The notes below the pieces were generated by a model. The model was given only the letters and a program-made list of their open reading frames with translations. It was not told the DNA's origin and ran no database searches. Both the position numbers and the translations under genes were made by a program. This document shows positions 6,629-49,248 of a stretch of 64,000 bases of DNA, in pieces; positions within the stretch are counted from its first letter, which is position 1, and the number at the start of each line of letters is the position of its first letter. The stretch is taken from NCBI GenBank assembly GCA_021234155.1, contig JAJEKV010000006.1, forward strand, positions 9,701,003 to 9,765,002. The letters are read 5' to 3'. This stretch comes from Isoetes taiwanensis (lineage: Eukaryota > Streptophyta > Lycopodiopsida > Isoetales > Isoetaceae).

Positions 6629-8283
6629 TGTGACGTTCGACCGATTATCACGGTCCCGGGGGCGTATCGCATCTTGCCCTCGCCACGATGTACCACGCCA
6701 TCCGACCGACGCGTGTCTGTACGCGTATAGCCAGGTGGGTAGCCCCTAGGGGGCAATTCGCAAGGAGTGTGCATTAATTAATGTGCACATCTAACCATGT
6801 GCACATTAATTAGGTGCACATTTTCCCATGTGGCCACTCTATGCCAAGTGGGCCATACCCAAAGGTGCAATTAATGTGCACATTTTCCAATATGCACATT
6901 AATGTGGGCACACCTTTCCATGTGGGCACAATTGGCCACCTAGCCATTAATGGCAAGTGGGCCCATTCCCAATTATCCCACATGCCAAAAGGGGATAATT
7001 GGAAACCCTAACCAACCCCCATGTCTATATAAGAAGGGAAACCCTAACTTGCCCATTTTCGTTTCTAGGGCTTTAGAACTCTGTTTTGGCTGCCTCAAGA
7101 GCCAAAACCGCATCCCGAACTCGCCTCGAGTGAACTGCCTTTAGTTTCCCTTGATTCGAAGTTTTGTGAGAATGGTCGAGTTCAGTCGAGGAGTCCCTCA
7201 AGGATCAGGTATTTAGGCAATTTAATAGCTTAAACCCTCTTTTAGTCATAAAATCAGTAGGTTTAGCCTATTAAATTACTCATAGCAGCCTTCTAGATCT
7301 CTAGATACCAGACTCTAACTAAAGAACCTAACTCTATGATATAGATTAGATCTTGTCCTTTAGTTCTCTTATGATGTATGTGGATGATGTATCTCTATGA
7401 ACTCGTTGTATTGGGAAGGGGGGTAGAGACCTAAAGCTTGGTAGTAGATGCTCCTAGATTAGCCTCTCTAGCACACTATAGTTTCGGCCTGTGTACAAGA
7501 GCCACACCAGGTTGTGAGTGAAGGGGCTAGACTGGCTCATAAGGAGGTTCGTGTCCTGACTCTTGAACGATCCCTCTGGCGTGTAAAGTCTACCGGGGAT
7601 CATTGCGACTAGGTCTAATGGCTTGCCACTGAGTGTGGGCAGGGCATGGGCTCGACACCCGTGAAGTGGGGTTCACTTTCCATTGGGTTCAAGTCGAATA
7701 AGAGCAGTGGCTCTCTAGTCTCCTTGAGTCAGCATGTAGATCTCTGGAGGGAGTGATCCCTGCCTGCCCCATCGGACCTGGGGAGATGTAACCCAGGAAT
7801 AGCCCTTTCGTCTATGCATCCGGCGGGCTACAGTCAAGTCCCAACACTTTTCAACCTACTGCAGTGTGCACGTGAGGGGCGGATGGAGTGGACTACCCAT
7901 TGCCATAATTCTTATGCCCAAATCCATTGCCATGAATTCATGCCCGCAATGAACTCGGAGACCCAAGCTTGTCAGTCCATCCCTGTGTCTGAGCCTTGTG
8001 TAGGATTCCCTATATGCATTGTGCTGATCATTGTCTATGCAAATGTGATGTACCACCCTAGGGGTGGGTATGTGATGCTTTGTATACTGACATGTATGTT
8101 TACGCTTCCGCAGCTAGGTAGGCCCCGAGGGAGACGGGGTAAATGACCCTTCACTCTTCCCAATCGGAACCCGCCCCCGGTTGCGGTGTCATGTGGAGGG
8201 CCCCAGATCGCAAGACGGGGCTGGTATGGGGAGAACTCCTGTTTGTATACGGTGGGTGCACCGATATACAGTAGGGGACGCCA
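6629..8283 (+). repeat. element 1 5' LTR
   Basis: Colinear with the 3' LTR over its length, from TGTGACGTTCGACC to a degraded end near 'gtaggggacgcca' (the intact end in the 3' LTR is GGGGACGTCACA). A TATA box CTATATAAG lies at about 7025-7033, followed by a transcribed-looking leader. The GC-rich second half holds the 'ggggggtagagacc' block shared with the solo LTRs. The exact 3' end is uncertain by a few bases because of local change. Confidence 0.88.
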
Positions 8284-8286
8284 TGC

Positions 8287-8297
8287 TGGTATCGAGC
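8287..8297 (+). other. primer binding site, initiator tRNA-Met type
   Basis: TGGTATCGAGC lies just after the 5' LTR. The usual plant initiator-tRNA-Met site is TGGTATCAGAGC, so one base is missing here. Confidence 0.7.
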
Positions 8298-8938: not shown

Positions 8939-10057
8939 CATGGCCCTGGACCGAAACAAACTGCCGAAAAGCCTCACCAAGCACATCCTCCAAAGGCTGA
9001 CCCCAGCCTGATTCAAAGGGCACTTCGCTTAACGCCTTTCAATCAGGGGACTCTTCATCGCCGGGGGGACAGACTCGACCGAAAGCCATCAGACGGAGAT
9101 CATAGAGGAGGAGTGCCCTGACATCATGCAGCAAATCCTCAAGAGATCAGCTGGAGGAAAGGAGAAGCAGGGAAGAACGTGGAGCGCAGGGGACAGCCGA
9201 CCGGCAACAACAAAATAGGCCCGGGCCCGCCTCGCAAGAGGAGGAGGAGAGACAGAGCAGCACCGCCGGTACCCTTGGCTGAGGAAGCAGACTTTGCACG
9301 CTTCATCGGGCAGTATGAAGATAAGGAGCCACGGAGCAGAGGATCTAAGAACCGAAGACGGTCCAAATCCATAGCCTGGGCCGGTCAAGAAGAGGAAGGC
9401 CAAGGGCATCAAGGCGGGCGCGTAAGGGTCGCCAAGGTTGGTAAGCCGGCGGAGGGCCCCGCATCAATGAGCCGCCGAAGAAACCTCGCCTTCGACCGAC
9501 TTCCACTTCGGACGACGCATTATGTCCCCAACACGAGGGGCAAGCTCTTCGAGAACCCCGGCCGCAGAGAAGGAGGTACCCGGCAGGTGGCGGCGATGGG
9601 CGCGCAACTGGACAGCCGCTAAGCCCCACCATTCCCGACGTGGGGACAGAGTCAAAGCCCCACGGCGCAGAACGAAGCTTATGTGATAGACCCCGTGAAA
9701 GTCTATCGAAGAGGATCAAGGAGCACAACGCTTACATGGCGCGGGGAGGCCTACAATGCCTATTACCAGGAGCACCGTGGTGAGAACAATCGGGCGGACA
9801 TCCGGACAAGAAGCCAAACATTGAAGCCGCCACCACCTGCCCAAGCCTCCCCGGCACCGGGGGAAGAAGCTGCAAGAAGAAGAAGTCGGAGGACGAGCTC
9901 TCAAGGAAATTCGCACTTCCGCAAGAGTTACGGACTCTTGATCCTCGCACCGCTTCCAACGCTTGGTCCGGTGAAGTCATGCAGAGTTACAACACGACAT
10001 GCGAGTAACCGACGAGATGTTTATTGCAGCTTACAGGAGGCAGCGGAGGCGAAAATA
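8939..10057 (+). pseudogene. element 1 ORF1 remnant, extra pre-gag protein
   Basis: Coding sequence from ATG 8939 (MALDRNKLPKSLTKHILQRL) to TAG at 10055-10057 (ending DEMFIAAYRRQRRRK) that can be followed only by changing frame several times. Long open stretches lie in all three frames: about 9050-9180, 9179-9622, 9460-9780 and 9683-10129. The product is very basic, with clusters such as KRRRRDR and PPKKPRLRP that look like nuclear localisation signals. It occupies the same position as ORF1 of element 2, but I find no histone-like segment in it. Function unknown. The frameshifts may be decay or partly assembly errors. Confidence 0.55.
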
Positions 10058-10314
10058 GTGCAAAATTTTGAAGATTCGACGCCCGCACTTAAGACACGCC
10101 GCGAAGAGGGTTACCCTCATGAGGCGTGATATGTATCTTGCCGTGCACATCAAGGGAGAACGCCTTTGAGACTTTGTAAATAAATGTAAATTTTGTTAAT
10201 ATAAAGAATTTTGTGGATAAATAATGTGTCTAATCTAACTTAATTAAGGCAAGTTATAGAATTCTACCTTTTGTTTTGATAAAATTGGAGTTTTTAAGCA
10301 AAATTGAGATTGCA

Positions 10315-10882: not shown

Positions 10883-12376
10883 ATGGCCACTGCTGACTTC
10901 AGGCGATGGTACAGCGCCAGTGCCCATGCTGCTGAGGCTGATGTCGATGACATCTTCCGCGTCTTCGGGAGGGAAATTGATATCCAAGCTACGCTGAATG
11001 CAACCCCAGCATATAGGCAAGTGTTAGCAGAGTTCCAAGCTAGGGTAGAACCCTCCCTTGTCCAGGTTCCCCCCTGCATAGGATACTTTGTTCCCCGCCA
11101 ATCCCTTCAAGCAGCCTTGGGTGATGTCCCCAACATCGCCAAGTACTTAACCAACAAAGCGCAGAGGCTACCCGACTACATGGTCCCGGACAAATCGGGG
11201 ACCAAGTACTTCTCCTACACCGCTGCCTTAGCCATTTTCTTATCCCACCGTGCCGAAAACCCAATGGGGGCAACCTCTATCCCTCCGATGGAGGTGGACC
11301 CCATAGCAGTGCAGGAAGAAGAGCAGATGCTTTTGCAGTATCAGCAAGAGCAGGAAGGAGAAGACGAAGAAGAAGAGGAGTCCGACGACGATAAGTACAC
11401 GGAGCTCGACTCAGAGGAGGAACGGCAACAAGCAGAACAGGAGATGATGAACTTCGGCGAGCCGGCGAACATCGGGGTTGCTCCCCACTCGGGCTAGGCA
11501 TCACAAGCCTAGCCCCAATCATCATCAACGGAGAGGAGTATTTGCTCCTCAGCGACATCCAGAACCTTCCCGAGTGCAGGGAGAGGGAGCTCAGATTGGA
11601 TGAATTACTCCACCAGCTACGACAGTCAGACTTGGACGACTTCATCGTCCGGGGAGCCTCGGACTTTCCGCTCCAAGTGAGGGAAGCCGACACCTACACA
11701 GGAGAGTCGACTTCAGACATACAGGCCTACAGCAGTATCAGGCAAATGATGGAGGAGCAAGAGCTGCCAACGGAGGAGGAGTTCCTCGCCCTCCAAGAAC
11801 AGATGGGGATCCGTGGGAAGACCACGAGCATTTTAATGCCGAGGCCTTCGACACCACCTCCATCAAGAGGAGCAGGAATCGACCTCGCATCGGTCGACAC
11901 CATAATCGAAGACTACGGAGCTCACCGAGATAGGGGCTCGGCCAATCTGCCGGACGGCATAGAGCAGGAGGCCAATCCAAATGGAGAAGCTTCAAACGCA
12001 CAATGACAAATGACAGTCCCCGAGGTACTACCTGCCGCCGCCGCTGCTAGATGGGAGAATTGCGGTAATCCACCGCAAGTTCAGCCCCGAGGTGAAGAAG
12101 GAGTGTTCATGCTGATTGCACTCTCGTGCCGGCGGGCATGCTCGCATAGCGCCAAATGTCGACTATGCTGTCCTGGTCAAGAGAGCAATGGCACTTGACC
12201 TCTTCGACTTCGCCATACCACATCGACGTCAGGCGAGATTGGCGGTTACCGCAGCCCTCACATCAGACCGTAGGGTGGAAGAGCTGGTGAGAGCCTTGCA
12301 GGGCGGCTCGTCAGCAAGCGTCATCAGGAACTTGGGTCATTCGGTAGGAACGGTCCAAGTTAAGAAGTTCCTTTAG
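10883..12376 (+). pseudogene. element 1 ORF2, extra pre-gag protein
   Basis: Starts MATADFRRWYS at 10883 and runs 204 codons to a stop at 11497. After a frameshift it continues through 11509-12006 (LLLSDIQNLPECRERELRL) and, in another frame, to about 12376. A strongly acidic stretch (EDEEEEESDDD) lies at residues about 160-170. It is related to ORF2 of element 2 at 39231-40499. Both begin MA-x-x-D-x-x-x-WY, both have an acidic linker, and both then share a block of the form xGxEYLLLSDI / xGQEFLLLDDI, followed by DDFI. No known enzyme motif is visible. A structural or chromatin-directed role is only a guess. Confidence 0.65.
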
Positions 12377-12578
12377 GACAACCCGTCTTACCGGCGATTT
12401 CAAGACTAGTTAGACTCTTGATCCCGGAGACTTTTTGTACTGAACTACTATATAATATAAATATAATTTCTTTTGCACTTTAAAATGTTTTGTTGATATG
12501 CTTTGCCCCACAACTATACCAACAAACATAAACAATGCAAGAGAACAAATAAATCTAACCATATAGCCATGAATTACT

Positions 12579-12588
12579 GTGTATGCAG
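12579..12588 (+). other. candidate 3' splice site ahead of gag
   Basis: GTGTATGCAG ends an AT-rich 200-bp gap after ORF2 and immediately precedes the open frame that leads into gag. Element 2 has TTTGTTCTATCTAG at the matching place (to 41449). Gag-pol may therefore be expressed from a spliced RNA; no donor site has been assigned. Confidence 0.35.
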
Positions 12589-12629
12589 CTAGAGGCCTAG
12601 GCTCAAGAGAACAACAACGCCGAGACATC

Positions 12630-13972
12630 ATGGAAGAACAGACCCCGCCCAGACCACCTCCGGCAAGGAACCTATTTGAAGAAATGGAACCCATGACCCC
12701 AGAGGAGGAGATATCCCAGATGAGGACGGACCTTGAGCAGATAAAGGCTCTGCTAGCCGCACAAGCAGGAACAGGTTCGGTGGGCAATCCTCAATTGCCA
12801 CAAGCATCAGCTCGGAAAACAGGAAGAGACAAGAAGAGGAGCAAGAGAAGGAGATCCCCCAGCTCAGATTTCTCCGACTCAAGCTCAGACTCAGATTCCG
12901 ACTCCGAGGAAGAAGAAGAGCAGGCCCGGGACCGACCAGATGGAAGGCAAAGGAACACTGAAGATGGAAGGCAGAGGAACACCCCGGATGGACGACAAAG
13001 GGACACAAGAGTCTCTGACTACCAGAAGAAGGTAGACTCTGCTTTGGGAAATGTTTGGAAAGCCAGAAGGTGTCCTTCAAGGACAAGCAGGAGGGGTCAA
13101 ACTACTCCAAAGCAGTGCGATCCTTTTTGCAGGCTATGCCCAAGGAGAAGAGGCAAGAGTGCATGGAGAAACAGCTTTGCTTCAGGTGCTTCCAGCCAGG
13201 CCATAGAATAGCAAACTGCCCCTACGTCATGAGTGCAGCACTAGCGGAGTTGGGAGATTGGGACATCCTGTCTGACGACGACGGCGAGGAAGCCCGCGAC
13301 TACATTCAGGGTGAGTGTCATATCTTTGCCGCAATAGATACAGAGCAAGCAGAGAGCCAGTATAAGGTAATTTCCACAGTTGGGAAGGCCAAGGCCAAGT
13401 CTTTCATAGTCCTGATAGATTCAGGAAGTAGCCATAATTTTGCATCCCCGAGAATGGTGCAAATGCTGAAGCTGAAACTGCTGAAGTCGAAGCCGAGACC
13501 CGTTGTTCTAGCAAGTGGAGCAGTAAGGCAGACAGCAGGCAAAAGGATCAACTTCGACATCGATTTGCCAGGAATAAACATTCAGATGGGAGCAGAAGTA
13601 ATGGGCATTGGCAAGTATGATTTGATCATAGGAATGGAGTATCTTGGACCGGCAGGGGCCATCATTGATTGTGGAAAGCGGAAAGTGACCTTCCCGACGC
13701 CCGATGGCAAGATCATTGAGATCACAGGTAAAGAAGTCCTTCCCACCATGCAGTGTATGTCTTCTAAACGACTGTTCAAGTGCATCAAGAGCGAGCAAGT
13801 AGCTTACATCTTTAAGCTTGAGATTGAAGAACCGGAGTCCGGAGAAAGCAAAGAAGACAAGGTGCTCAAAGAAGTTGCGAAGCAAATAGCTAACTTGATC
13901 ACGAATTCCATGATCTCTTTCCCCGATGAGATCGAGCACCTCCCTCCTTCTGAGGAGTCGAGTGTGAGATAG
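12630..13972 (+). pseudogene. element 1 gag and protease, gag core deleted
   Basis: Gag begins near ATG 12630 (MEEQTPPRPPP) with a coiled acidic segment (MTPEEEISQMRTDLEQIKAL) and an SR-like region (RSKRRRSPSS, serine/aspartate run). At about 13050 the frame jumps straight to sequence just before the zinc knuckle. The central retrotransposon gag (capsid) part seen in element 2 (about 41800-42250) is missing. The zinc knuckle CFRCFQPGHRIANC (13178-13219) fits CX2CX4HX4C. The protease active site LIDSGSSHNF is at about 13412-13441, and the second protease block GKYDLIIGMEYL follows. The frame is lost at about 13960, before reverse transcriptase. Confidence 0.85.
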
Positions 13973-16788
13973 CGCCGAACTGAGAACGGCAGAAGCCCAC
14001 AAGTAAGGCTCCATACGTAAATGGCGACGCAGAATTGACAGAGCTAAAGAAGCAATTGCAGGAGTTGCTCGACCTAGGCTTTATTAGACCTAGCGTCTCG
14101 CCATTTGGAGCGCCCATTCTTTTTGTCAAGAAGAAGGATGGCAGTTTGAGGATGTGCATAGACTATAGGCAGTTGAACAAGCACACCATCAAAAACAAGT
14201 ATGCGCTTCCCAGGTCGGATGACTTGATGGATCAGCTTCAAGGAGCAAAGGTCTTCTCCAAAATCGACTTAAGGTCAGGCTATCATCAGATCCGGATAAA
14301 GGAAGAAGATATTCATAAGACCGCTTCGGGGCCGGGTATGGACATTATGAGTTCACGGTAATGCCTTTCGGCTTATCGAACGCTCCAGCAACGTTCATGA
14401 GGCTCATGAATGATATCTTCAGGGAGTTCTTGGACACCTTTGTGATTGTGTTCTTTGATGACATTTTGGTGTATAGCAGATCCCTTGAGGAGCACGTACA
14501 ACACTTAAGGAGGGTGCTGGAAAAGTTGAAGAGGCACCAGTTGTACGCCAAGTTGTCGAAGTGTCACTTCGCAACGGAAAAGGTGGAATATCTTGGTCAC
14601 GTGATATTGGCTGAAGGAATTTCGACGGACCCTTCCAAGATTGAAGCCGTCATTCAGTGGCCGGCACCGAAGAATGTGCATGAGGTCAGAAGTTTTCTCG
14701 GCCTAGCAGGGTACTACAGGAAGTTCGTGAAGAACTTTGCTAAGATAGCGGCCCCGCTAACAGACTTGACGAGGGCGGAGAAAGTAAAAGACTGGGTAGA
14801 TCATTGGCACAAGAAAGCCCAAAAGGGGTTTGAATTGTTGAAGGAAGCTTTAACAACCGCCCCCGTCTTAACCCTGCCAGACCCGGAGAAAGATAAGCTT
14901 GTAGCAACAGATGCGAGTAAGATAGCTACAGGTGCAGTGCTCATGCAAGAAGAGCGTGTAGTAGCGTATGACTCGGGAAGATGAACGAATTAAACGCGCT
15001 ACCCTACGCATGATCAAGAGCTGCTTGCGGTTGTCAGGGCATTAAGAATTTGGAGGCATTACCTTTTGGGGAGGAAGTTCCAATTGGATACAGATCATCA
15101 GAGCCTCCAGTATGTATTTACGCAACCACATCTCAACTTGAGGCAGAGAAGGTGGATGGAGTTCCTTGAAGAGTATGACTTTGATATAGTCTACAAGCCA
15201 GGGAAGCTCAATGTGGTAGCGGATGCGCTTTCAAGGCATCCCCTGACAACTAGAGTGCATTGCAATGCAATTTCGACGCTTTCCAGCGACTTCAGGAAGA
15301 AGATCGAAGAATCCTTGCCAACAGATGTCGACTTCAAGGAAGTATGGGCAAGCTTATGCAGGGAAGCAAGAACAGATAAGGAGCGGGAAGCCTTCAAACA
15401 TTATAAGAAGGAAGGCAACCTGTTATACCATAAGAACAAGTTGTGTGTGCCAGAATCATCAGGGGTAAGGAAGTTGATTCTCCACGACACGCACAACAGT
15501 CCAATAGCTGGCCATGCGGGATTCATGAAAACATATTTCAAAGTGCGCAGCAGCTATTATTGGCCAGGAATGAAGAAGCAGGTAGCTCGCTACATCAAGG
15601 AATGTCAGCTTTGTCAGCAAACGAAGGCAGAACAGCTTCGAATTCCAGGAGCTTTAGAGCCATTAACGGTGCCAAACGCTAAGTGGGAGGTCATCAGCAT
15701 GGATTTCATCACAGGGCTTCCAAGGACAGTAAGAGGGAAAGATGCCTTGATGGTAGTAGTTGACAAGTTGTCGAAGATGGCACATTTCGTGCCTTGCAGG
15801 ACAACAGATACAGCTATGGATACAGCAAAGCTCTTCACCAAAGAGATCTTTAGGCTTCATGGCATGCCAAGGGAGATCATCTCCGACAGGGATCCGAAGT
15901 TCATGAGCGCCTTTTGGCAAGACCTCTTTGCGACCATTCAGACGAAGTTATCCATGAGCACGGCGTATCATCCTCAGACGGATGGCCAAACGGAGCGGAC
16001 CAACAGAATTTTGGAGGACATGCTACGAAACTATGTCTGGAATAAGCAAGGTATGTGGGAAGAATTTATTCACTTGGTGGAGTTTGCATACAATAGCACC
16101 AAGCAAGAATCATCCCAAATGTCGCCGTTTATGATCAATTACGGTTATCAATGCCTAACTCCAGACACTTGGCACAATCCCGTGTCAAAAGTAGAAGTTT
16201 CGCAGCAGATGTTGGCCGATATGCAGCAGCTCGTGGAAGAAGTGCGAGGATATCTCCTAGCAGCAAGGAGTCGACAGAAGAGCATCGCCGACAAGCATCG
16301 AACAGTCAGAGAGTTCGAAGTTGGCGACAATGTGTGGCTCAAGATCAAGGTGAAGCAGGCGAAGCTCCGCATCGGAAATTGTAAGAAGCTTGCTCCAAGG
16401 TGGGCGGGACCTTTCAAAATAGTCCAGAGAGTAGGTAACCAATCCTACAAGCTAGAATTGCCGCCGCACCTAAAGATTCATAAGGTCTTCCACGTGAGTT
16501 TGTTGAAGAAGCACACTCCAAATCCAGACGAAGTCTTGGACACTCCAACGTTGTTGGAAATGACGGAGGAGGAGCTGGAAATAGTTCCAGAATTGATTCT
16601 TGATAAAGCTTTCAAGAAAACAAGGAGATCAGAGTTCCTTCAGTATTTGGTCAAGTGGAAACACTTGCGCTGGAAGACGCGTGGGGTACTTTCGAAAAGA
16701 CCTAGTAAAGAAGTATCCACAGTTCATGGAGCAATGGGACGGCAAGGTCATCTCCGAAGAAATCGGCTCAGGCATGTCGATTGTGTAG
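13973..16788 (+). pseudogene. element 1 pol: RT, RNase H, integrase, chromodomain
   Basis: Reverse transcriptase spans 14035-14780 with the catalytic FFDDILVYS near 14450, interrupted by a short deletion at about 14330. RNase H follows ([15 protein letters not shown]), broken by a frameshift near 14975. Integrase is open from 15066. It has an HHCC zinc finger (HAGFMKTYF...CQLCQQTK), catalytic Asp in SMDF, Asp in SDRD, Glu in GQTERTN, and the GPF/Y-type WAGPFKIVQRVGNQSYKLEL. The end is a chromodomain (LQYLVKWKHL) broken by frameshifts at about 16670-16690; its last codons are in another frame, ending GSGMSIV at 16788. Domain order and the chromodomain identify a chromovirus. At least four disruptions make it inactive. 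Confidence 0.92.
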
Positions 16789-17590
16789 ACTAAATTCTAT
16801 GTGTAGTTAAGATTAATCTACGCATGCAACCTACGCTAAGTATGAATTGCATGCGTTGTAACCGATGATGAGACCGCTACGGTGATCTCTAGGGCGTGGT
16901 GTAATGTCGATGTAGGCATGACCGCGTTTCCGCTTGGAAGAGTGGAAGGTAGATTAGAAAGTCTACTGCTTACGTTTCCGCGGAGACGGCGACCTCGAAG
17001 AAAAGAGGTCATGGAAGGATGCATTCATAGGAAAAGCACCTCTAGCCCCATATATGCTTTGATAGGAGGAATCTGGCCTTCACGCCCCCATACGGGAAGG
17101 ACCTATCCTCCACGGTGGGCAACTAGGGTGCAGGCATGAGAGGCATATAGGCATTTAGGCGCTGTCTCCTCGGCCATTATGGAAGATTCACCCTCTTCCT
17201 ACGCCGGGAGATTAGCCATGCATCCATGTAGATAGGTGGGGTGGTCACCATATAACCAAAATTTTATTAATAACTAAATGGTACTAACGTAGTGTCGACA
17301 CTGCTGAGCCAATAGAGCTCCTGGGAGGGCAAGGAGGTCGAGCTACGAAGACTTGCAACACAAATTTTGTTGGAATGTGTTGCAAGGAATGAAGATTACC
17401 TCGGATGTTAATTTGAATTTTGATAAACTTAATTCCTGTTTTAATGATGTTGTGAATTGATAAGTTATTTCATAATATAATCGCGTAATAATGTTCTAAA
17501 AATATTACCTTAAGGTAATATTAATAAATGTGTAAATGTTATAATCGTATAAATCGTATGTATCAGGTTGACTGCAGGTTAGGAAGATCC
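16789..17590 (+). other. element 1 3' untranslated region
   Basis: No open frame of note lies between the end of the chromodomain and the purine tracts. The sequence turns AT-rich from about 17260. Confidence 0.6.
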
Positions 17591-17644: not shown

Positions 17645-19319
17645 TGTGACGTTCGGCCGCGATATCACGGTCCCGGGGCGTATCTTTATCGCTGCCTCGT
17701 CACGCAGCGTACACGCCACTCCGACCAAGCGATGTGGTATGCCGACGATATAGCAGTGGGTAGCCCCTAGGGGGCAACTCGCAAGGAGTGTGCATTAATT
17801 AATGTGCACATCTAACCATGTGCACATTAACCTAGGTGCACATTTTCCCATGTGGCCACTCTATGCCAAGTGGGCCATACCCAAAGGTGCAATTAATGTG
17901 CACATTTTCCAATATGCACATTAATGTGGGCACACCTTTCCATGTGGGCACAATTGGCCACCTAGCCATTAATGGCAAGTGGGCCCATTCCCAATTATCC
18001 CACATGCCAAAAGGGGATAATTGGAAACCCTAACCAACCCCCATGTCTATATAAGAAGGGAAACCCTAACTTGCCCATTTTCGTTTCTAGGGCTTTAGAA
18101 CTCTGTTTTGGTTGCCTCAAGAGCCAAAACCGCATCCCAGACTCTGCCTGAGTGAACTGTACCCTTAGTTTCCCTTGATTTGAGCGTTTCAGCAGAATGG
18201 TCGAGCTCAGGTCAGGAGGAGTCCCTCAAGGATCAGGTATTTAGGCAATTTAATAGCTTAAACCCTCTTTTAGTCATAAAATCAGTAGGTTTAGCCTATT
18301 AAATTACTCATAGCAGCCTTCTAGATCTCTAGATACCAGACTCTAACTAAAGAACCTAACTCTATGATATAGATTAGATCTTGTCCTTTAGTTCTCTTAT
18401 GATGTATGTGGATGATGTATCTCTATGAACTCCTTGTATTGGGAAGGGGGGTAGAGACCTAAAGCTTGGTAGTAGATGCTCCTAGATTAGCCTCTCTAGC
18501 ACACTATAGTTTCGGCCTGTGTACAAGAGCCACACCAGGTTGTGAGTGAAGGGGCTAGGCCGGCTCATAAGGAGGTTCGTGTCGACTCTTGAACGATCCC
18601 TCAAGTGTAAAGTCTACTGGGGATCATTGTGACTAGGTCTAATGGCTTGCCACCGAAAGTGTGGGCGGGGCATGGGCTCGACACCCGTGAAGTGGGGTTC
18701 ACTTTCCATTGGGTTCAAGTCGAATAAGAGCAAAGGGCTCTCTAGTCTCCTTGAGTCGGCATGTAGATCTCGAGGGAGTGATCCTTGCACGCCCCATCGG
18801 ACACAGGGAGATGTAACCCGAGTGAATAGCCCTTTTCGTCTATGCATCCGGTGGGGGCTGATCAAGTCCCAACACTTTTCAACCTACTACGCAAAGTGTG
18901 CACAGGGAGGGGCGGATGGAGTGGACTACCCATTGCCATGTTCTTAGGCCAGCCAAATCCATTGCCATGAATTACATGCGCAATGAACTCACGGAGACCC
19001 AAGCTTGTCACCATCCCCATTATCCGAGCCTTGGGTAGGATTCCCTATATGCATTGTGCTGATCATTGTCTATGCAGATGTGATGTACCACCCTAGGGGT
19101 GGGTATGTGATGCTTTGTATACTGACATGTATGTTTACGCTTCCGCAGCTAGGTAGGCCCTGAGGGAGACGGGGTAAATGACCCCTTCACTCTTCCCACT
19201 GGAACCCGTCTCGGTTGCAGTGTCATGTGGAGGGCCCTGTATCGGCACGGCGCTGGTATGGGGGGAGAACTCCTGTTTGTATACGGTGGGTGCACCGTAT
19301 ACGAGTAGGGGACGTCACA
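17645..19319 (+). repeat. element 1 3' LTR
   Basis: TGTGACGTTCGGCC to GGGGACGTCACA, 1675 bp, colinear with the 5' LTR. Near the end, GTATACGGTG and CACCGTATAC form a perfect 10-bp inverted repeat (about 19280-19302). The target duplication GATAA follows at 19320. Confidence 0.93.
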
Positions 19320-34242: not shown

Positions 34243-34792
34243 GCTCTATGCGCACTGTTTGGTTGCAAAAGGGATTATTGATAATGCCACTCAAGGGATA
34301 ATAAAGAAGTTCATTTTCCTTGGATATTGCTTCTTTATTCTCCATCTTCATCATACATTGGGCATTCTCGCATTCGTCTATCTATAAGGATTGTATCTGG
34401 ACAAGTATGCCCAGAAGAGCGAAGTTTATAACCACATCAAATAACCTTAGCATCTTTGCAAAATTTAACATGGTTCTCAAGTTACTAAGAAAAATTTGAT
34501 AGAATAACAACATCCAAAATTACGATACTAAGCAATTTATAGAAAAACCATTCCATAAATTAATGATGATTTCCAGAGACCATCATAAAATCTAAAATTC
34601 ATATAATTAAATATAGTAAGAAGTAGCAATGGTTTTGCAAATTCAATACATGTCGACAACTAGCATGCAAAAGCATCAAAAACTGTGATATTAAAAATGT
34701 ATATAAAAATATCATTCCATAAACTAATGATGATTTCTAGAGACCAATGTAAAATATAGAATTCATATAATAAATATAGTATAAAGTAGCTC

Positions 34793-37503
34793 GCCCCCCC
34801 TAATCGCCAGCGCCTAACCTATGGCCAACATTAAGAGCACCATGGACCCTTCTAGCCTCAACATAGCCCAAATCTATGCATATCCCCTATCCTATATTTC
34901 ATTACTCTAAACAATTTTTGATCAAGTTGAATCTTCAACAGCTACCGTACACCATGGTCGAGAAACCTGACTAGGTGATGGTCTTGATCAAGTTCTATCG
35001 CCCTGAGTGTGAGGAGCATGCAGAGGAGGAAGCCGGGAAGACGACTTTCGGGAAGTGGAGAGAGCGGACACTGAAGCCCGGGGTCGGGAGTACCGATATC
35101 TGGGCCATGGGTGGGCTATTATTAATTGCCAACCCCTCGAGATTCTGCCATATGAGTGGCATGAAGCTTCCCAGACTTTTACCTGGGGTCTGATCCCGGA
35201 TATTAGCTTTAAGAGCACCATGGACCCTTCTAGCCTCAACATAGCCCAAATCTATGCATTGATCGCGCAGCATATGGCTACCGACGGGGATTTGGTTGAC
35301 ATCCTTCTGAACGAGTTGGTGCAGCGGTTTGCCAACGATACTAGGATCCCCTATCCTATATTTCATTACTCTAAACAATTTTTGATCAAGTTGAATCTTC
35401 AACAGCTACCGTACACCATGGTCGAGAAACCTGACTAGGTGATGGTCTTGATCAAGTTCTATCGCCCTGAGTGTGAGGAGCATGCAGAGGAGGAAGCCGG
35501 GAAGACGACTTTCGGGAAGTGGAGAGAGCGGACACTGAAGCCCGGGGTCGGGAGTACCGATATCTGGGCCATGGGTGGGCTATTATTAATTGCCAACCCC
35601 TCGAGATTCCGCCATATGAGTGGCATGAAGCTTCCCAGACTTTTACCTGGGGTCTGATCCCGGATATTAGCTTGGACTATCTGACCACGGTCCAAATTGA
35701 TATGAGCCTCCGACCCGACCGCTACCATGCCGAGCTAATCCGAAGAGTTGCTGCCCGGCGGTTGGCTCAGGTGGAAGCCGACATGGAACGAGCCCGTGAG
35801 GCTCGGGAACAGGCAGAGAAGGCCTAGCAAGAACAGCCAGATCAGCAGGCCAATAGGGAGCAAGAGACCCAGCAGGGGCCTCATCAGGCGGACAAGCCGC
35901 CCAGCAAGAGACGGAGAAAATTTGTAGCCCACAAATCCGGCAGCCAATACAAGGAGAAGTTGAAGGTTGTCGGAAATATTGGGAAGAATACGAGCTCCAG
36001 CCGGAGGCAAGAGCGGGTGGATGCCAGGTTCTTACAGTTCTATACCGAGGAAATGCTTCCTCTTTGCATTTCTCTGGGGCAACCACCACAGCTATATATC
36101 GACCGACCTGTGGTGAAGGAGATGCTGGGAGGGGGCAAGAGTGATGAGGTGCTCAGGTGCAAACTCCAGTGGGCCCGGAATCCACCTGTCGTGATGCACG
36201 AGGGACAGGAGCTCCCTCAAGTATCATTTGCCCCGCCATCCTCATGGAGCAAGATGTGGACGATGAGACCTTGGTCACGAGAAGGGCAAGGTTCCCGAAT
36301 ACTCTGGATGAGGAAGAAGATGAGCATATTGAGTGGAAGATTTCGCTAGTTAGAAGCGGCTAGTCCCAGAAGAAATGCCGCCACGACGGGGAGCCGGGAG
36401 GACGTTTAACGGGATTGGATGTTCTTCCCGCATATATCACCGAGGCAGGGGAGTTTCTCCTCCCGGATGATATTTTATGGACCTACCATATAGTAGCCTC
36501 AAGGGACGGGAGAAGGCCAGATTCTCTATGAACCGCGAATATTGCGGTGGACGACTTCATTGATTTCGTCCATGGATCTTCCTTCTAAGGTACAACAGTT
36601 GCTTCACTTCCATCAATGAGACCATTGAACCAGGTGAGACACTTCTCAGGCTTCGAGATCTTGTGCTCCAAGATCCTCCATCTCAGCCTCCTCCGGAAGC
36701 TTTTATGGCTATGGGACCTCAAGTCCCAAATATCAACATGGTCGAGATTCCCTCCAACTCTGATGAAGAAGGGGAGGACTTGTATCATAACCCAAGCCAT
36801 GCTAAAGAAGAACAGGAGGAGCTCGAGGAAGAAGAGGTTCCCATGGACTTGGAGAGGGAGGTAGCCACTTCGGTTACACCCCCGGAGGAACGCAATGCAA
36901 AACCATCTTACCCGCTTCTTCCTCGCCGACTTTTAAGCATGGGCAAGTTCTTTTTGTGGCCCGTGACCTGGGCCCTGAAGCAGAGGCATCATGGTGGAGC
37001 CTCCGTGCCCTATCCACCTTGGCGGGGCACAAGAAGTTGCCATACCGCGTCTTCACTTACGTGTTGGTGCGTCGCGACCTCGCCCTGACTGCTTTAGGTC
37101 AGGATATAGCACCCTGGATGAGCATGAAGCTCCTCATGGCGGCCCACTAGCTGTCGCCTATCCTCCAGAAATTGCTTCCATTGCAGCCGCCACCATAGAT
37201 CCAGGGGTCACTCTGTTACGTCATCGACCGCCACCACCACCTCCTACGCCAATGGATCAGGATGCGGGGCCTAGCTCCTAAGCATTTATATTATGTATTG
37301 TAGAGTATAGCCTTGGCTACTCAGAAATATGTAATTTTTGCATTGACCTTTCATGCATTTTTGAATACAATCTAATTGTCTTTTTCCTACAATACTTGTC
37401 TTTCTCTTCTAGAGTTTGAAGTATAAGGAATCATTCATTTGTTGTACATTCATTCTTGCCGTCTTACAGACGATGAAGTGGAAGAAGACGAACAGGAAAT
37501 ACC
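34793..37503 (+). mobile_element. element 2 copy 1: rearranged, internally deleted
   Basis: Starts abruptly at 'tcgccccccctaatcgcc', which also begins the coding part of copy 2 (37725). It holds two partial ORF1 repeats (34803-35205 and 35212-35670). An ORF1 tail then runs through the basic KRRRK and joins at about 36028 directly to ORF2 sequence (FLQFYTEE). The histone part, the ORF1-ORF2 spacer and the start of ORF2 are missing. It ends at about 37503, in the acidic ORF3 exon. An amber stop at 35825-35827 faces CAG at 38412-38414 in copy 2. No LTR is seen. Confidence 0.8.
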
Positions 37504-37520
37504 TGAAATTTTTCCCCCGT

Positions 37521-37551
<31 letters not shown>

Positions 37552-37724
37552 GTTTTTAAACAAGAAAATTTTTAAAATTTACAAAGTTAAACGGTTGTCT
37601 CTTCTTTTGCTTCTCTATCCGCCCGCCTATTCCGCCGTCCGCCATAGCCGCCGGACTTGAGGTCACCCTTGTGCCTTGGTTGCGCCCATACCATCCCTAC
37701 ACCTCAGCGCCTCCCTTCTCGCCC
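37504..37724. other. junction between element 2 copies, poly(T)
   Basis: A run of about 26 T (37525-37550) follows 'cccccgtaat', then AT-rich and C-rich leader-like sequence up to the ORF1 start of copy 2. The T run may mark an insertion junction or a low-quality assembly join. Confidence 0.5.
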
Positions 37725-37748
37725 CCCCTAATCGCCAGCGCCTAACCT

Positions 37749-38994
37749 ATGGCCAACATTAAGAGCACCATGGACCCTTCTAGCCTCAACATAGCCCAAA
37801 TCTATGCATTGATCGTGCAGCATATGGCTACCGACGGGGATTTGGTTGACATCCTTCTGAACGAGTTGGTGCAACAGTTTGCCAACGATACTAGGATCCC
37901 CTATCCTATATTTCATTACTCTAAACAATTTTTGATCAAGTTGAATCTTCAACAGCTACTGTACACCATGGTCGAGCAACCTGTCTAGGTGATGGTCTTG
38001 ATCAAGTTCTATCGCCCTGAGTGTGAGGAGCATGCAGAGGAGGAAGCCATTCAAAGTGAGGCCGCCCGTATACGGACCTTGGCCCGGGAAGACGACCTTC
38101 GGGAAGTGGAGAGAGCGGACACTGAAGCCCGGGGTCAGGAGTATCGATATCTGGGCCATGGGTGGGCTATTATTAATTGCCAACCCCTCGAGATTCCGCC
38201 ATATGAGTGGCATGAAGCTTCCCAGACTTTTACCTGGGGTCTGATCCCGGATATTAGCTTGGACTATCTGACCACGGTCCAAATTGATATGAGCCTCCGA
38301 CCCGACCGCTACCATGCCGAGCTAATCCGAAGAGTTGCTGCCCGGCGGTTGGCTCAAGTGGAAGCCGACATGGAACGAGCCCGTGAGGCTCGGGAACAGG
38401 CAGAGAAGGCCCAGCAAGAACAGCCAGATCAGCAGGCCAATAGGGAGCAAGAGACCCAAATAGGGCCTAATCGCCGGACAAAGCCCCGCCCAAAGAAGAG
38501 ATCGGAGAAAATTTGTAGCCCACAAATCCGGCAGCCAATACAAGGAGAAGTTGAAGGTTGTCGGAAATATTGGGAAGAATACGAGCTCCAGCCGGAGGCA
38601 AGAGCAGGTGGATGCCTCACGGCCCCACCCTGTTACTGCAGGCAAGACGGTACCCCAAAAGAAGGGGCCGACTCCGAAGCCTGCTACCACGAGGAAGCTC
38701 CACCGCTTCCGACCAGGCACCGTGGCCTTACGAGAGATCTGTAAGTACTAGAAGACCACGGAGCTCCTAATAAGGAAGCTGCCTTTTCAAAGGTTGGTTC
38801 GAGAGGTAGCTCAGGAATTCAAGACGGACCTCTGCTTCCAAACCTTCGCCATTTTGGCCCTTCAGGAGGCTGCTGAAGCCTACTTAATTGCCCTCTTTAG
38901 TGACGCAAATCTTTGCGCTATCCACGCAAAGAGGATCACCATCATGACAAAGGACTTAGCCCTCGCCCGAAGAATCCGGGGGGATCATTTGTAG
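37749..38994 (+). pseudogene. element 2 ORF1: N-terminal domain, NLS and histone H3 fold
   Basis: Starts MANIKSTMDPSSLNIAQIYA at 37749. An in-frame TAG sits at 37986-37988, at the same place in all three copies in the window. The frame continues 37989-38744 with a charged helical region (RREADM-type Arg/Glu/Gln repeats) and a basic cluster. After a frameshift at about 38490-38550 the frame 38551-38994 gives a histone-tail-like Lys/Pro/Thr segment and then 97 codons matching histone H3 residues 39-135 without insertion or deletion (HRFRPGTVALREI ... [12 protein letters not shown] ... ARRIRGDHL). The copy 1 sequence shows that the basic region and the segment before the histone were once in one frame. 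A TAG at 38749-38751 replaces Gln55. The intended product would be a chromatin-directed fusion protein; its role is unknown. Confidence 0.85.
38695..38991 (+). other. histone H3-like fold domain captured by a retrotransposon
   Basis: In canonical H3 numbering: kept residues include R42, T45, R49, K56, R63, K64, R69, R72, C110, H113, K115, R116, T118, R128, R129 and R131. Changes include R52C, Q55stop, R83C, G102A, E105S, P121T, Q125A and a DHL end instead of ERA. Residue 90 is Leu, as in plant H3.3, while residue 41 is Phe, as in plant H3.1. The ARTKQTARKS tail is absent; a shorter Lys/Pro/Thr stretch precedes the fold. Loop 1 is not lengthened, so it is not CENH3-like. Confidence 0.92.
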
Positions 38995-39230
38995 CTGCCT
39001 TCGGGCATTTCCATTGTAAAACTTTTATTAATATTAATAGAAATCCCCAATTTTGTTATTCTGTCCCTGTTATGGAGTAGACAGCTAGGTTTTAATAATT
39101 CTTTGAAAAAAAAAATTTATAATATTAATGCTGATGTCAGCATAAAAGTTATAAGGGTATTTCAAAAGTTTAGGGTTTCATTTTCACTCTTCAACTTTTG
39201 TTTATCCTTTCCTCCTTCCTTCCAGTGCCT
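38995..39230 (+). other. element 2 ORF1-ORF2 spacer
   Basis: AT-rich, with a telobox-like TTTAGGGTTTC at about 39170 and a pyrimidine-rich stretch leading to ATG 39231. Unlike element 1, no clear TATAAATA box or stem-loop module is present. Confidence 0.5.
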
Positions 39231-40499
39231 ATGGCTGCCCTCGACCTGCTTGCATGGTACCAAGATGGGGAGCACTAGGATCCCCAAGTGCCCTTCGATC
39301 TCCTGAAGCCCTTGCTAGTCCAGCACATCGACCTTGTCTTAAACATGCAGAATCATCCAAATTATGCCGGGTTCTTACAGTTCTATACCGAGGAAATGCT
39401 TCCTCTTTGCATTCCTCTGGGGCAACCACCACAGTTATATATCGACCGACCTGTGGTGAAGGAGATGCTGGGAGGGGGCAAGAGTGGTTATGAGGTGCTC
39501 AGGTGCAAACTCCAGTGGGCCCGGAATCCACCTGTCCTGATGCACGAGGGACAGGAGCTCCTCGAAGTATCATTTGCCCTGGCCATCCTCATGGAGCAGT
39601 ATGTGGACGATGAGACCTTGGCCGCTGAGAAGGGCAAGGTTCCTGAATACTCGGATGAGGAAGAAGATGAGCATATTGGAGTGGAAGATTTCGGCAGTTG
39701 GAAGCAGCTAGCCGAAGAAATGCCGCCACGACGGGAGCGGGGAGGACGTTTAACGGGATTGGATGTTCTTCCCGTCATATATCACCAGGGCCAGGAGTTT
39801 CTCCTCCTGGATGATATTTTATGGACCTACCATATAGTAGTCGGCCTCAAGGGATGGGAGAAGGCGCAGATTCTCTATGAGCTGGCCGAATATTGCAGGG
39901 ATGACTTCATTGATTTCTCGTCCATGGATCTTCCTCCTAAGGTACAACAGTTGCTTCACTTCCATCAGCAGACCATTGAACCAGCTGAGACACTTCTCAG
40001 GCTTCGAGATCTTGTGCTCCAAGATCCTCCATCTCAGCCTCCTCCGGAAGCTTTTATGGCTATGGGACCTCAAGTCCCAAATATCAACATGGTCGAGATT
40101 CCCTCCAACTCTGATGAAGAAGGGGAGGACTTGTATCATAACCCAAGCCATGCTAAAGAAGAACAGGAGGAGCTCGAGGAAGAAGAGGTTCCCATGGACT
40201 TGGAGAGGGAGGTAGCCACTTCGGTTACACCCCAGAGGAGCGCAGCGGCAAACCATCTTACCCGCTTCTTCCTGTCAGCTTTTAAGCATGGGCAAGTTCT
40301 TTTTGTGGCCCGTGACCTGGGCCCTAAAGCAGAGACATCGTGGTGGAGCCTCCGTGCCCTATCCACCTTGGCGGGACACAAGAAGTTTCCATACCGCGTC
40401 TTCACTTACGTGTTGGTGCATCGCGACCTCGCCCTGATTGCTTTAGGTCAGGATATAGCACCCTGGATGAGCATGAAGCTCCTCATGGCGGCCCACTAG
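39231..40499 (+). pseudogene. element 2 ORF2, extra pre-gag protein
   Basis: MAALDLLAWYQDGEH, a TAG at 39276-39278, then open to the stop at 40497-40499: 423 codons in one frame. Features: QPPQLYIDRPVVKEMLGGG near residue 70, an acidic run (YSDEEEDEHIG), GQEFLLLDDILW near residue 190, a Pro-rich part, a second acidic run (EEEVPMDLE), and a C-terminal globular part (FVARDLGPKAETSWWSLRAL). It is related to ORF2 of element 1. A second frame stays open across the end (to 40624, MDQDAGPSS), so the true end may be there. Function unknown. Confidence 0.75.
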
Positions 40500-40812
40500 C
40501 TGTCGCCTATCCTCCAGAAATTGCTTCCATTGCAGCCGCCACCGTAGATCCAGGGGTCACTCTGTTACGTCATCGACCGCCACCTCCTACACCAATGGAT
40601 CAGGATGCGGGGCCTAGCTCCTAAGCATTTATATTATGTATTGTAGAGTATAGCCTTGGCTACTCAAAAATATGTAATTTTTGCATTGACCTTTCATGCA
40701 TTTTTGAATACAATCAAATTGTCTTTTTCCTACAATACTTGTCTTTCTCTTTTAGAGTTTGAAGTATAAGGAATCATTCATTTGTTGTACATTCATTCTT
40801 GCCGTCTTACAG

Positions 40813-41273
40813 ACGATGAAGTGGAAGAAGACGAACAGGAAATACCTGAAGAACTGCGACAAGAGGACGAACCACCCCCAGAGCAGGGCTATGAAAAAGA
40901 GGATGGAGAGTATGAGGATGATGATGATGATTATGAAAAAGAAGAGCCCGGGGATGAAGGAGAGCCATATGACCCCATCAAGGGTTTTGAGATTGTTAAT
41001 ATCCTTCGTGAGCACGCTTTCGAGCACTTGCAGCAGACACTCCGTCGCACATGGAACTATTGGGATATGACTAAACAAGAAGCCTTTGCTGATGCAAATG
41101 ATCACCTCTGGCAGATCTTTTATGCACTTCGAGACCTCTTTAACTTATTGATCATCGGCCCTACTTTGGATTACCAATATGTAATCATTCAGGCGTGGGC
41201 TAGGTATAAGGTAGTCCGGGCCGTGAGGGAAAGTATTCGATATTCCATCTTATACCCCTTCACACAGCCATAA
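40813..41273 (+). CDS. element 2 ORF3, acidic exon-like ORF
   Basis: Open from a candidate 3' splice site (CCGTCTTACAG, to 40812) to a stop at 41273, with no ATG near its start. This suggests it is read from a spliced RNA. The first 55 codons are almost all acidic (DDEVEEDEQE, YEDDDDDYEKEE). The rest looks helical (LRDLFNLLIIGPTLDYQYV). The same exon start is present in truncated form in copy 1 (about 37470-37503). Element 1 has no separate counterpart; its ORF2 carries an acidic run instead. Confidence 0.5.
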
Positions 41274-41449
41274 ACTTGTTGTCTTTGTAACCTGTCTTAT
41301 CTACATGTAACTTTGTTGTCCTTGCTGTTTGTATAGCCGACAGTTTTTGTAATCGGGAGTTATCTTAATGACAAATGTGTTTCCTTTTTGTAATCTACTT
41401 GTGATACCAAATGCAATGGGAATGCTTATATTTGATTTGTTCTATCTAG

Positions 41450-42759
41450 ACGGTGCACGCCCTCCCCCTTGGGCGACACCCGTTCAATCGGGTCGTCTTA
41501 CCCCAGAACAGGAGCTTATGATTATGAAATGCCAGCTTATCGAGCTCCAAGCATATGTATTGCAGCAGAATCCCCCACAGGAGTATGGACCAGAGATTCC
41601 TGCTCCACTGAACCCGCCGCCGCCACCGGCACCCGCACCTGCACCTGCAGCCGCTACGACAAGTCGATCCAAGAGGACACGCCCTAGTTCCTCCTCAGAT
41701 GCTGCCTCGGAGTCTTCTAACTCTTCTGATTCTTCTGAGGATGAGGCCGATCATGCTAAGACTAGTAAAAAGGATTACCAGAAAACGGTGGACTCCGCCA
41801 TTACTAGCATATGGAAGAACCGCAAGCTTGCACAGTTTTCGGGGAAAACCAGGAATAGTATGGATGCGGAATCGTGGTTGGACGAAATGCAGGAATTTGG
41901 TAAGTCGTATAGAATGACAGATAAAGATACCGGCAAGATTGCCACCACCAACCTCACAGGGTCGGCGCGCCTCTGGTGGAAGGAATACGCCCGCTCTCAT
42001 GGGCTTACAAGGGGAAGGTATTGTTATAAAGTTTTTGCTAAGGCCTTCAAATCACACTATGTACCAAAGGCTCATCGTTGCCAGCAGATCCAAACCTTCT
42101 ATCGCTTGGAGTAGAAAAGCATGACTGTCCAGGCTTATACAGATGAGTTTATGCGCTTACGCTTATATGTCCCAGGGATTAATGAGCGACGGGCAGTAGA
42201 GGGCTACATAGAGGGCCTATCCCCTACTCTCAAGAAAATGGTTCGGGCCATAGATCCTAAGACGGTTGCAGAAGCAGAGGCAAAGGCACTGAGCTTAGAG
42301 GAGGACACCCCAAGGTATCAGCCGCCACGAACCTCTTCGTTCACTCAGAACAAGGGGTACATACACCTTACCGAGGGCGCTCGCCTAGCCCAGGGCCTCC
42401 TGCCTCTACCGCCTATCAGAAGGCTGATAAGAAGGTTTCCTTCACTGTACCAGAGAAGCCTACCAACACTGCAGGGGCCTTCAGGGATATTCTCCAAGCT
42501 ATCCATAGGGATCAGCGTGAACCGTTACGTAGGGAGAAGGCCTGTTATCGGTGTTTTCGTCCGGGCCACCGTATGTAGGAATGCCCTTTCATCACCCAGA
42601 CAGTGCAGGCTGCTCTAGCAGATATGGATTGGGAGGACCCAGATAATACCGTGGAAGAGGACGCGCCTGATTATATCACAGGTGAGTCTCATATTTTCGC
42701 TGCTATTGAAACAGGCCAAGCCAACCACCAGCCTTCTGTCATTTCTACGGTTGGCCAAG
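41450..42759 (+). pseudogene. element 2 gag
   Basis: Follows a candidate acceptor TTCTATCTAG. N-terminal LTPEQELMIMKCQLIELQAY matches the start of element 1 gag. A Pro/Ser-rich part and the capsid-like core follow (WLDEMQEFGKS, GSARLWWKEYA, MTVQAYTDEFMRLR). An amber stop lies at 42112-42114 before MTVQAY and another at 42576-42578 inside the zinc knuckle CYRCFRPGHRM-stop-EC. A frameshift at about 42380 separates the core from the knuckle. The core present here is what element 1 has lost. Confidence 0.85.
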
Positions 42760-44165
42760 TAGATTGTAAACCTTTTGTCATTCTTATGGATATGGGTAGT
42801 ACTCATAACTTTGCATCTCTTAGAATGGCAGAAGCCTTACAGATTACCCCATTGAAATCTAAGCCACGTCCAATTACCCTGGCAAGTGGTGCCATACGCC
42901 ACACTTGGGGTCGTCGAATCAATTTGAATATTCAGTTGCCAGGAGCACCTGTTGCTCTCGGAGCCGAAATAATGGATATTGGCCGATATGATCTCATTGT
43001 CGGCATGGAATTCTTGGCCGCTGTCAAGGCCAACATTGATTGTGAGAAATGGGAGGTTACCTTCAATGCGGCCAATGGAGCTCGAGTTACTATAGCAGGT
43101 AAGCCGGTTAACCCTATTATGCAATGTATTTCCTTACGCCAATTGCATAGAGCTCTCAGGAAGTCACAGATCACAGGCATGATCCGACTTGCTTCCGTGG
43201 GAGCTAAGTCTAAACAGGAGGAAGTCCTTGATACCTTGCCTCCAGCAATAGCCATGATTCTTCGGGAATACCATGATCTTTTTCCTGATGAAATCCATCG
43301 GCTACCACCTTTCCGAGGGGTAGAATGTGAGATTACCTTGGAATCACGCACCAAGCCTACCAGCAAAGCCCCGTAAAGCATGAGTCTTCCTGAGTTAACC
43401 GAGCTTAAGAAGCAGTTACAGGAACTCCTCAATCAGGCCTAGTGTTTCACCCTTTGGAGCCCCAATACTCTTTGTTAAGAAAAAAGATGGCACCATGAGG
43501 ATGTGCATTGACTATCGACAATTAAATAAGCATACTATTAAGAATCGCTAGCTTTACCACGGGCCGATGATCTTATGGACCAGTTGCAAGGGGCTAAGTA
43601 TTTCTCCAAGATTGATCTCCGCTCAGGATATCACCAGATAAGAATTAAAGAGGATGACATCCATAAGTCTGCTTTCTGGACTCGTTATGGCCATTATGAA
43701 TTTACAGTGATGCCATTTGGCCTGACCAATGCTCCGGCTACCTTTATGCGCCTTATGAATGATGTTTTCCGTGAATACCTTGACGATTTCGTTGTTATAT
43801 TTTTTGATGATATCCTCATATATAGTAAGACATTGGAAGATCATGAACGACATCTTCGTTTGGCATTGCAGAAACTGAGATGTCATCAATTGTATGCCAA
43901 ATTCTCTAAATGTCGTTTCGCCACCACCAAGGTGGATTACCTGGGTCATATTGTATCGGCGGAAGGCATTGCCACAGACCCCGCTAAGATTGAGGCAGTT
44001 AAAGAATGGCCTATTCCAACCAATGTCTCTGAGGTCGCAGTTTTCTAGGCTTGGCCGGGTATTATCGTAAGTTTGTCAAGGATTTTGCCAAGCTCGCGGC
44101 ACCTCTAACTGATCTCACCAAACATGATAAGGTTGGAGATTGGATGGCCCATTGGAAAGATAAGG
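42760..44165 (+). pseudogene. element 2 protease and reverse transcriptase
   Basis: Protease: VILMDMGSTHNFAS, where the second position of the usual D-S/T-G is Met, so the active site is altered. GRYDLIVGMEFL is the second block. After a frame change at about 43370 the reverse transcriptase reads [20 protein letters not shown], then [12 protein letters not shown], then the catalytic FFDDILIYS near 43800. Single-base deletions occur at about 43545 and 44035. Sequence similarity stops at about 44165, before RNase H is complete. Confidence 0.88.
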
Positions 44166-44440
44166 TAGTTGTAAAAGCACGCTGTGGTGTTCCAGTTCGG
44201 CTGTCCCCCCTGTCCCCCCAAAATGTGGCGTTGCATCCACCACTTTTGTGGTATGAAAGTATAATTATGGCACCGCTCAGCTGCCGTTATTTAAGAATAG
44301 AGTCCCAATTTGTGGGGGAAATTCTAATTTCAAAAACTAAAATTCAAATTCAAATTCCTATTCTTTGGCCCCTTCCTGTTCTTTGCCTACGTCCTGTTCT
44401 TTGGCTCCCTCCCTGCTGCAAGCTCCAATCCATTGTGGAT
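44166..44440. other. 5' flank of transposase-like gene
   Basis: Sequence changes character here: 'ctgtcccccctgtcccccc' then AT-rich DNA. It is the junction where element 2 is truncated, and it holds the upstream region of the gene starting at 44441. No terminal inverted repeat was identified. Confidence 0.4.
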
Positions 44441-45723: not shown

Positions 45724-45735
45724 CTTCCCCACCAA
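45724..45735 (-). other. element 3 polypurine tract
   Basis: TTGGTGGGGAAG on the minus strand directly before the 3' LTR start TGTTAGTCC. Confidence 0.85.
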
Positions 45736-49240: not shown

Positions 49241-49248
49241 TATATAAG
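49241..49248 (+). promoter_or_regulatory. TATA box for antisense ORF in element 3
   Basis: GGGCTATATAAGACG, 41 bp before ATG 49289, with ATTGG (inverted CCAAT) at about 49205. It points opposite to the direction of the retrotransposon. Confidence 0.6.

Follow-up and report, generated by a model that had tools for sequence, protein, structure and literature searches.

Ty3/gypsy retrotransposons of Isoetes taiwanensis with an accessory ORF that ends in a histone H3 fold

Introduction

The nearest precedent for a mobile element with a histone that a limited search brought up comes from a fungus, where a hAT transposon bears an H3-like gene (PMC3538342). In the wheat fungus Pyrenophora tritici-repentis, 26 H3L genes were counted in the reference genome and ESTs were noted, and the authors raise the question of chromatin effects in the portion of the report used here (Manning et al. 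2013, PMC3538342). Like the Isoetes elements described below, this hAT carries and multiplies an H3-like gene. It differs from them in being a fungal DNA transposon, in having H3L as a separate ORF between inverted repeats rather than as a C-terminal fusion and, in the same portion of the report, in having no second H3 class. The H3L copies are very similar to each other, so that this portion shows no long-term selection.

Accessory ORFs are found in plant Ty3/gypsy elements, and some of them lie upstream of the polyprotein, as here (Neumann et al. 2019, PMC6317226; Vicient and Casacuberta 2020, PMC7264820). However, those described are heterogeneous and mostly devoid of a known domain, at least in the sections drawn on (PMC6317226). 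The word 'histone' is absent from the main text of PMC7264820 and occurs once in PMC6317226, for chromodomain binding. A Gypsy lineage of orchids likewise gained and kept an extra domain, an enzyme that may have a regulatory role, but this is an m6A demethylase and not H3 (Alvarado-Marchena et al. 2022, PMC9289625). A screen of 121 genomes, confined to angiosperms, let 15 extra domains pass its filter, and no histone is among those named in the excerpt at hand (PMC9289625). 'Histone' is also absent from the main text of the I. taiwanensis genome paper (PMC8566536), and no LTR retrotransposon with a histone was found in the open-licence literature searched.

Here we analysed a 64,000-nucleotide stretch of I. 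taiwanensis DNA (the window), in which an earlier note had described an H3 domain fused to an extra ORF of a Ty3/gypsy element, together with related copies elsewhere in the genome. In two related Ty3/gypsy families, the stretch from the 5' LTR to gag holds an accessory ORF1 with a C-terminal H3 fold, followed by a conserved ORF2. The window holds a member of each: element 1, a complete LTR element (6629-19319) of the e1-type family, and e2, a truncated copy of the e2-type family (Table 1).

Table 1. Positions of the features of the two H3-bearing elements in the window
Feature	Position	Strand	Remarks
Element 1 5' LTR	6629..8286	+	approximate end; preceded by TSD GATAA
Element 1 primer site TGGTATCGAGC	8287..8297	+	
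Element 1 second-class H3	9888..10166	+	frame-shifted, broken
Element 1 ORF2	10883..12006	+	in two frames
Element 1 gag region	12573..13211	+	homology to e2 gag; itself without a Pfam match
Element 1 zinc knuckle and protease	13055..13972	+	
Element 1 reverse transcriptase pieces	13984..14984	+	
Element 1 RNase H end, integrase, weak chromodomain match	15066..16793	+	
Element 1 3' LTR	17645..19319	+	TSD GATAA after it
Copy 1, tandem duplicate of ORF1-ORF2 block	34790..37507	+	H3 deleted
e2 ORF1 N-terminal part	37749..38501	+	one internal stop; frame differs from H3 here
e2 basic linker, ORF1 N part to H3	38502..38700	+	read in H3 frame; occupies the place of the H3 tail
e2 histone H3 core (H3 39-135) including stop	38701..38994	+	one internal TAG
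e2 ORF2	39231..40499	+	one stop near start; homologous to element 1 ORF2
e2 gag, Ty3_capsid in two pieces	41368..42615	+	first piece barely over cut-off
e2 protease, RVP_2	42603..43376	+	Pfam
e2 reverse transcriptase pieces	43432..44167	+	element not recognisable beyond

The H3 Core in the Window

The alignment of 97 codons to H3 residues 39-135 without an insertion or deletion, as claimed earlier, was borne out: positions 38701-38991, with the terminal stop at 38992-38994, encode 76 of 97 residues identical to canonical H3. The domain itself begins at 38701, and the first part of the range once given for it (38635..38994), positions 38635-38700, is linker. An in-frame TAG interrupts the core at codon 55. 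The part after it (38752-38991) matches the Pfam Histone family with E=1.4e-29, its 103.3 bits exceeding the family cut-off of 26.4 for the core histone fold, and PDB H3 chains match the same part with E about 6e-37; structure prediction for the window piece gave a fold with modest confidence (pLDDT 63.6). When a profile built from 70 database H3s was run against the 2060 stop-to-stop pieces of the window, those passing the inclusion threshold were two pieces of the e2 locus and one of element 1, near 10.1 kb. A protein search with the H3 scored 7996 sequences; the best 120 listed were at most 80% identical, with no close relative among them, and a plasmid DNA search with the window H3 segment gave no match.

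The window e2 copy is a broken, truncated and decayed family member, a fossil, but the H3 feature itself is not. ORF1 and H3 do not share a single ORF here, contrary to what had been claimed, since their frames differ. Cys at position 83 was correctly read, but it is private to this copy: R83C, like R52C, is absent from all 20 relatives fetched from the genome. An LTR pair was looked for around the window copy and none was found. The e2 ORF2 (39288-40496) has no Pfam domain over the cut-off, a protein search with ORF2 gave 7067 candidates with none at E<=0.001, and its structure prediction was useless (pLDDT 36.5).

The ORF1-ORF2 block is duplicated in tandem (34790-37507 and 37718-40850, with small internal deletions), and a run of 28 T at 37523-37550 separates copy 1 from copy 2. 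Copy 1 lacks 752 bp, with ATGCC at either end of the gap. An insertion into copy 2 instead of a deletion from copy 1 was rejected because the ATGCC stands at both gap ends and the relatives have H3 there. ORF1 of copy 1 runs into the linker in one frame, bar one stop, so the former shared frame that had been read from this copy stands as far as the linker; it does not extend into H3, because the H3 of copy 1 is deleted. Copy 1 also has an extra 328-bp duplication, and its ORF1 linker is fused to ORF2 in frame.

A third Ty3-type element lies on the minus strand at 45142-56236, with LTRs near 45142-45723 and 55650-56236 and an apparent TSD AAATG. The H3 profile found no H3 piece in it, and after its integrase there is a 529-codon ORF (47147-48736) without a Pfam domain over the cut-off. 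Simple repeat arrays of the GTGGT and CCACCA type occupy 57364-57892 and 59155-59291.

The Complete Element and Its Relation to e2

Element 1 belongs to the second H3-bearing family. Its LTRs of about 1.66 and 1.68 kb differ by a K2P of 0.092 and are flanked by the TSD GATAA; the primer site is tRNA-Met-like. The order gag, protease, reverse transcriptase, RNase H, integrase is whole in element 1 and reaches only to reverse transcriptase in the e2 window copy. The chromodomain match (PF00385) of element 1 is weak, at 19.1 bits against a cut-off of 25.1. Its broken H3 gave a score of 144 in a frame-tolerant alignment; the highest control scores were 51 for 60 shuffles of the region, 47 for 50 other window segments read on both strands and 52 for 200 permuted H3 proteins. 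A viral contig scan with the integrase and searches for Rfam families and tRNAs found nothing.

The two elements were compared part by part by frame-tolerant alignment with 30 shuffles each. ORF2 (score 110, shuffles at most 48) and gag (111, shuffles at most 63) are homologous, while no homology was found for the ORF1 N part (51, shuffles at most 52) or the stretch after ORF2 (43, shuffles at most 47).

The e2-Type and e1-Type Families across the Genome

The same I. taiwanensis genome (1,658,258,908 bases, 1110 contigs; window at C1067:9701003) has the SAM_LFY (LEAFY) domain at four places, as befits a land plant or a close relative. It was searched with the histone family, and the best 150 of 8705 first-look candidates were scored. 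In 15 of them the family match starts at position 2 and scores 164-165 bits, and seven of the eight loci returned from these 15 are ordinary full-length H3. Open frames of up to 494 codons enclose many of the remaining 135; a stop inside the match occurs in five of the 150. From this set, 20 e2-type loci were picked for a high H3 score and long open frames, a choice that biases the sample toward intact H3.

In every one of the 20 loci ORF1 ends with H3 in one open frame (337-494 codons stop to stop) and the e2 ORF1 N part is matched at 33-83% identity, which supports the claim that the H3 belongs to the element. ORF2 is found in 19 of them (not L012), gag in 18 (not L010 and L016) and, within the 10 kb examined, protease in 15, reverse transcriptase in 13 and integrase in five. 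Upstream of ORF1, 16 of the 20 have an LTR-like end and a TGGTATC(A)GAGC primer site. Both LTRs and perfect 5-bp TSDs (TTATC, CAATC, GTGGC, TTATC, GGAAA) were found at five of the six loci tested on the 3' side, with LTR K2P of 0.034-0.063; at L027 the 3' LTR was not found in the piece examined. One locus, L012 (C1019:5367120-5377119), has LTRs, TSD, ORF1-H3, gag and an integrase match without an ORF2 match. No tight clusters were seen among the e2-type H3 matches listed.

The second family bears a more divergent H3 at the same element position, between the 5' LTR and gag. Here the sample was drawn blind to H3: a genome search with the element 1 integrase scored the best 76 of 40,691 candidates, which are 91-98% identical, the window's own copy apart, and 20 of the 76, spread down the list, were examined over 2 kb where H3 was expected. 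H3 was found in 15 of the 20, several of them broken, and an extra 1.5 kb for the other five added a displaced and broken H3 in L053, which brings the carriers to 16, several of the 16 being broken. No H3 was seen in the stretches examined of L040, L044, L047 and L054. In L040 the element is present only from a point downstream of H3; the stretch of L044 contains gag, so that H3 may lie outside it; those of L047 and L054 hold no element sequence. As to copies of the element lacking H3, which the earlier note had named as evidence against its reading, H3 is present in 20/20 e2-type loci, themselves picked for H3, and in 16/20 of the H3-blind e1-type sample.

A search with one e1-type H3 returned at least 150 matches at 91-100% identity, and five of the best 150 have a stop. 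Among the matches listed, seven pairs lie within 100 kb of each other against 1.35 expected, a slight clustering that is a weak hint at most; tight clusters occur among them, e.g., three within 30 kb on C1032.

Phylogeny of the Two H3 Classes

In a tree of 38 different H3s, a 100/98 branch parts the e2-type from host H3 and 17 further H3 rows; since the window H3 served as query for the database rows, they are not a random set for comparison. Once e1-type sequences and two CENH3-type rows are included, support is 96/94 for the e2-type branch and 100/97 for the e1-type branch. A single inserted host H3 pseudogene is rejected, because every fetched locus repeats the ORF1-H3 architecture and the 100/98 branch sets the e2-type apart from host H3; the dN/dS of the e2-type H3 given below also counts it out.

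The e1-type H3 shares ALKEIRHFQ, LLIP and VTLMR(Q/K)D-like motifs with a CENH3 (CENP-A) sequence. It does not have the lengthened loop 1 of CENH3: both e2-type and unbroken e1-type copies align to H3 without an insertion there. The grouping of the e1-type with the two CENH3-type rows has no support in the tree, and the best 60 PDB sequences matched by the e1-type H3 are H3 and not CENP-A. A CENH3 origin of the e2-type H3 is likewise unsupported by loop 1 length and by the trees.

Two families might have captured H3 independently, rather than by one ancient capture. The two classes are not sisters in the free tree and the ORF1 N parts show no detectable homology between families, unrelated as far as can be seen from e1-type pieces that were cut short. 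On the other hand, both H3s sit at the same place in the element next to a homologous ORF2, and these alignments neither show nor reject a single clade for both classes (p-AU 0.285); two captures are thus possible but, on balance, somewhat doubtful.

Selection on H3 and the Fused ORF1

The e2-type H3 has a median dN/dS of 0.045, with a maximum of 0.16 and no value of 1 or above, over 92 usable of 190 pairs; in the other 98 the synonymous distances were too large or too small for use, and the median pS over all pairs is 0.75. For the e1-type, nine copies with frames intact across all 88 codons or almost all of them gave a median of 0.062 (19 usable of 36 pairs). Over the same 40 of 136 e2-type pairs, dN/dS is 0.049 for H3 and 0.146 for the ORF1 N part. 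These ratios indicate strong purifying selection on the H3 part in both families and point to selection on the fused N part as well. They bear on the idea that a host H3 fragment was captured by chance and amplified as a passenger without function. Host-gene capture by transposable elements is common in the account consulted (PMC7264820), and both window H3 copies are broken. However, a dN/dS of 0.05-0.06 with many synonymous distances saturated, the retention of H3 in two families and the greater constraint on H3 than on the remaining ORF1 make a mere passenger extremely improbable.

The residues compared include contacts with H3', H4 or DNA, with C110, H113, R116, D123 and L126 at the H3-H3 interface. 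C110, H113, K115, T118, D123, L126, R72 and R83 are kept in all 20 e2-type and all eight e1-type copies, and R116 in 20/20 and 7/8, respectively. Among the interface and DNA-contact positions checked, the only ones not kept in every e2-type copy are R42 (17 of 20), R63 (19) and K64 (seven, with R in 12). One use of such a protein might be to package or condense the RNA or cDNA of the element inside the particle, as part of a complex that is H3-H4-like or of H3 only. ORF1 does lie upstream of ORF2 and gag, and H3 is fused to a basic linker, but the conserved residues include those of the H3-H3 and H3-H4 contacts, a constraint beyond what binding nucleic acid alone should impose. Nor did an H4 gene come to notice in the elements, and we consider packaging quite unlikely.

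Positions 41, 57, 60, 64, 86, 87, 89, 101-105, 107, 124, 125, 134 and 135 are commonly changed in the e2-type relative to host H3; position 107 is A in 20/20 e2-type copies and T in host H3. Many of these changes, at 86, 87, 89, 101-105 and 107, fall in a stretch from loop 1 to helix 2 that includes residues read by chaperones, so that the element H3 might act as a decoy for host H3 chaperones and disturb host chromatin assembly. Such a decoy would not require the DNA-contact residues to be kept, and other changes lie elsewhere (41, 57, 60, 64, 124, 125, 134, 135), which makes this role very improbable. In the e1-type, R63 is replaced by P and K122 by Q in 8/8 copies, K79 is N or R, and the HRFRPGT segment is not recognisable in the copies inspected; on account of these features an e1-type nucleosome could be abnormal or absent.

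In keeping with the earlier claim that the H3 tail is gone, no ARTKQTARKS tail is recognisable in the e2-type linker, where 0 of 20 relatives fell under 5% against shuffles. A retained tail had looked suggestive in an alignment, but the shuffle test gave it no support. The usual K9 and K27 sites sit in the normal H3 tail. A tailless element H3 that replaced host H3 on element DNA could form nucleosomes unable to carry silencing methylation, and both the absence of a recognisable tail in 20/20 e2-type copies and the kept core are in line with such an escape from silencing. It is nevertheless unlikely, as the linker is still K- and R-rich, a KS dipeptide is left in some copies and nothing confines deposition to element DNA. 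A methylation-proof histone as a general rule was dropped because the lysines at possible K9-like places vary.

Discussion

The H3 retained by both families suggests that the elements use it in dealing with host chromatin. We lean, by a little, towards the explanation as a whole, that of H3-fusion elements with a chromatin tether; the tether mechanism by itself is plausible, if somewhat short of probable. According to it, the ORF1 protein would be translated and would pair with host H4 through its H3 fold, and host chaperones would deposit the ORF1-H3 into nucleosomes or tetrasomes. The N-terminal part of ORF1, without a normal H3 tail, would thereby be anchored in chromatin, where it could tether element proteins or mark element DNA and so help integration or expression of the element. 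We favour the tether over silencing escape, packaging and a decoy because the fold, the H3-H3 interface and many DNA contacts are kept, and also because other positions are changed, the tail is replaced and the fused N part appears to be under selection.

A further and rather tentative reading, which we hold to be on the unlikely side, is that each of the two lineages produces a nucleosomal H3 variant for itself, one near canonical but tailless and the other with centromere-H3-like motifs. Such variants would enter host chromatin, possibly centromeric, so that the element would write part of the chromatin in which it lands and from which it is expressed.

The elements are an unrecognised source of H3-like genes in a plant genome, and they can lead counts of histone genes astray. 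They also provide a naturally tailless H3 and a second, unusual one, on which targeting, escape from silencing and the limits to nucleosome assembly can be tested. Chromatin silencing is a main plant defence against retrotransposons. The chromodomains of chromoviruses are reported as readers of histone marks in the part of the literature considered (PMC9289625). That an abundant element encodes a histone held under strong purifying selection suggests that such a parasite may write chromatin as well.
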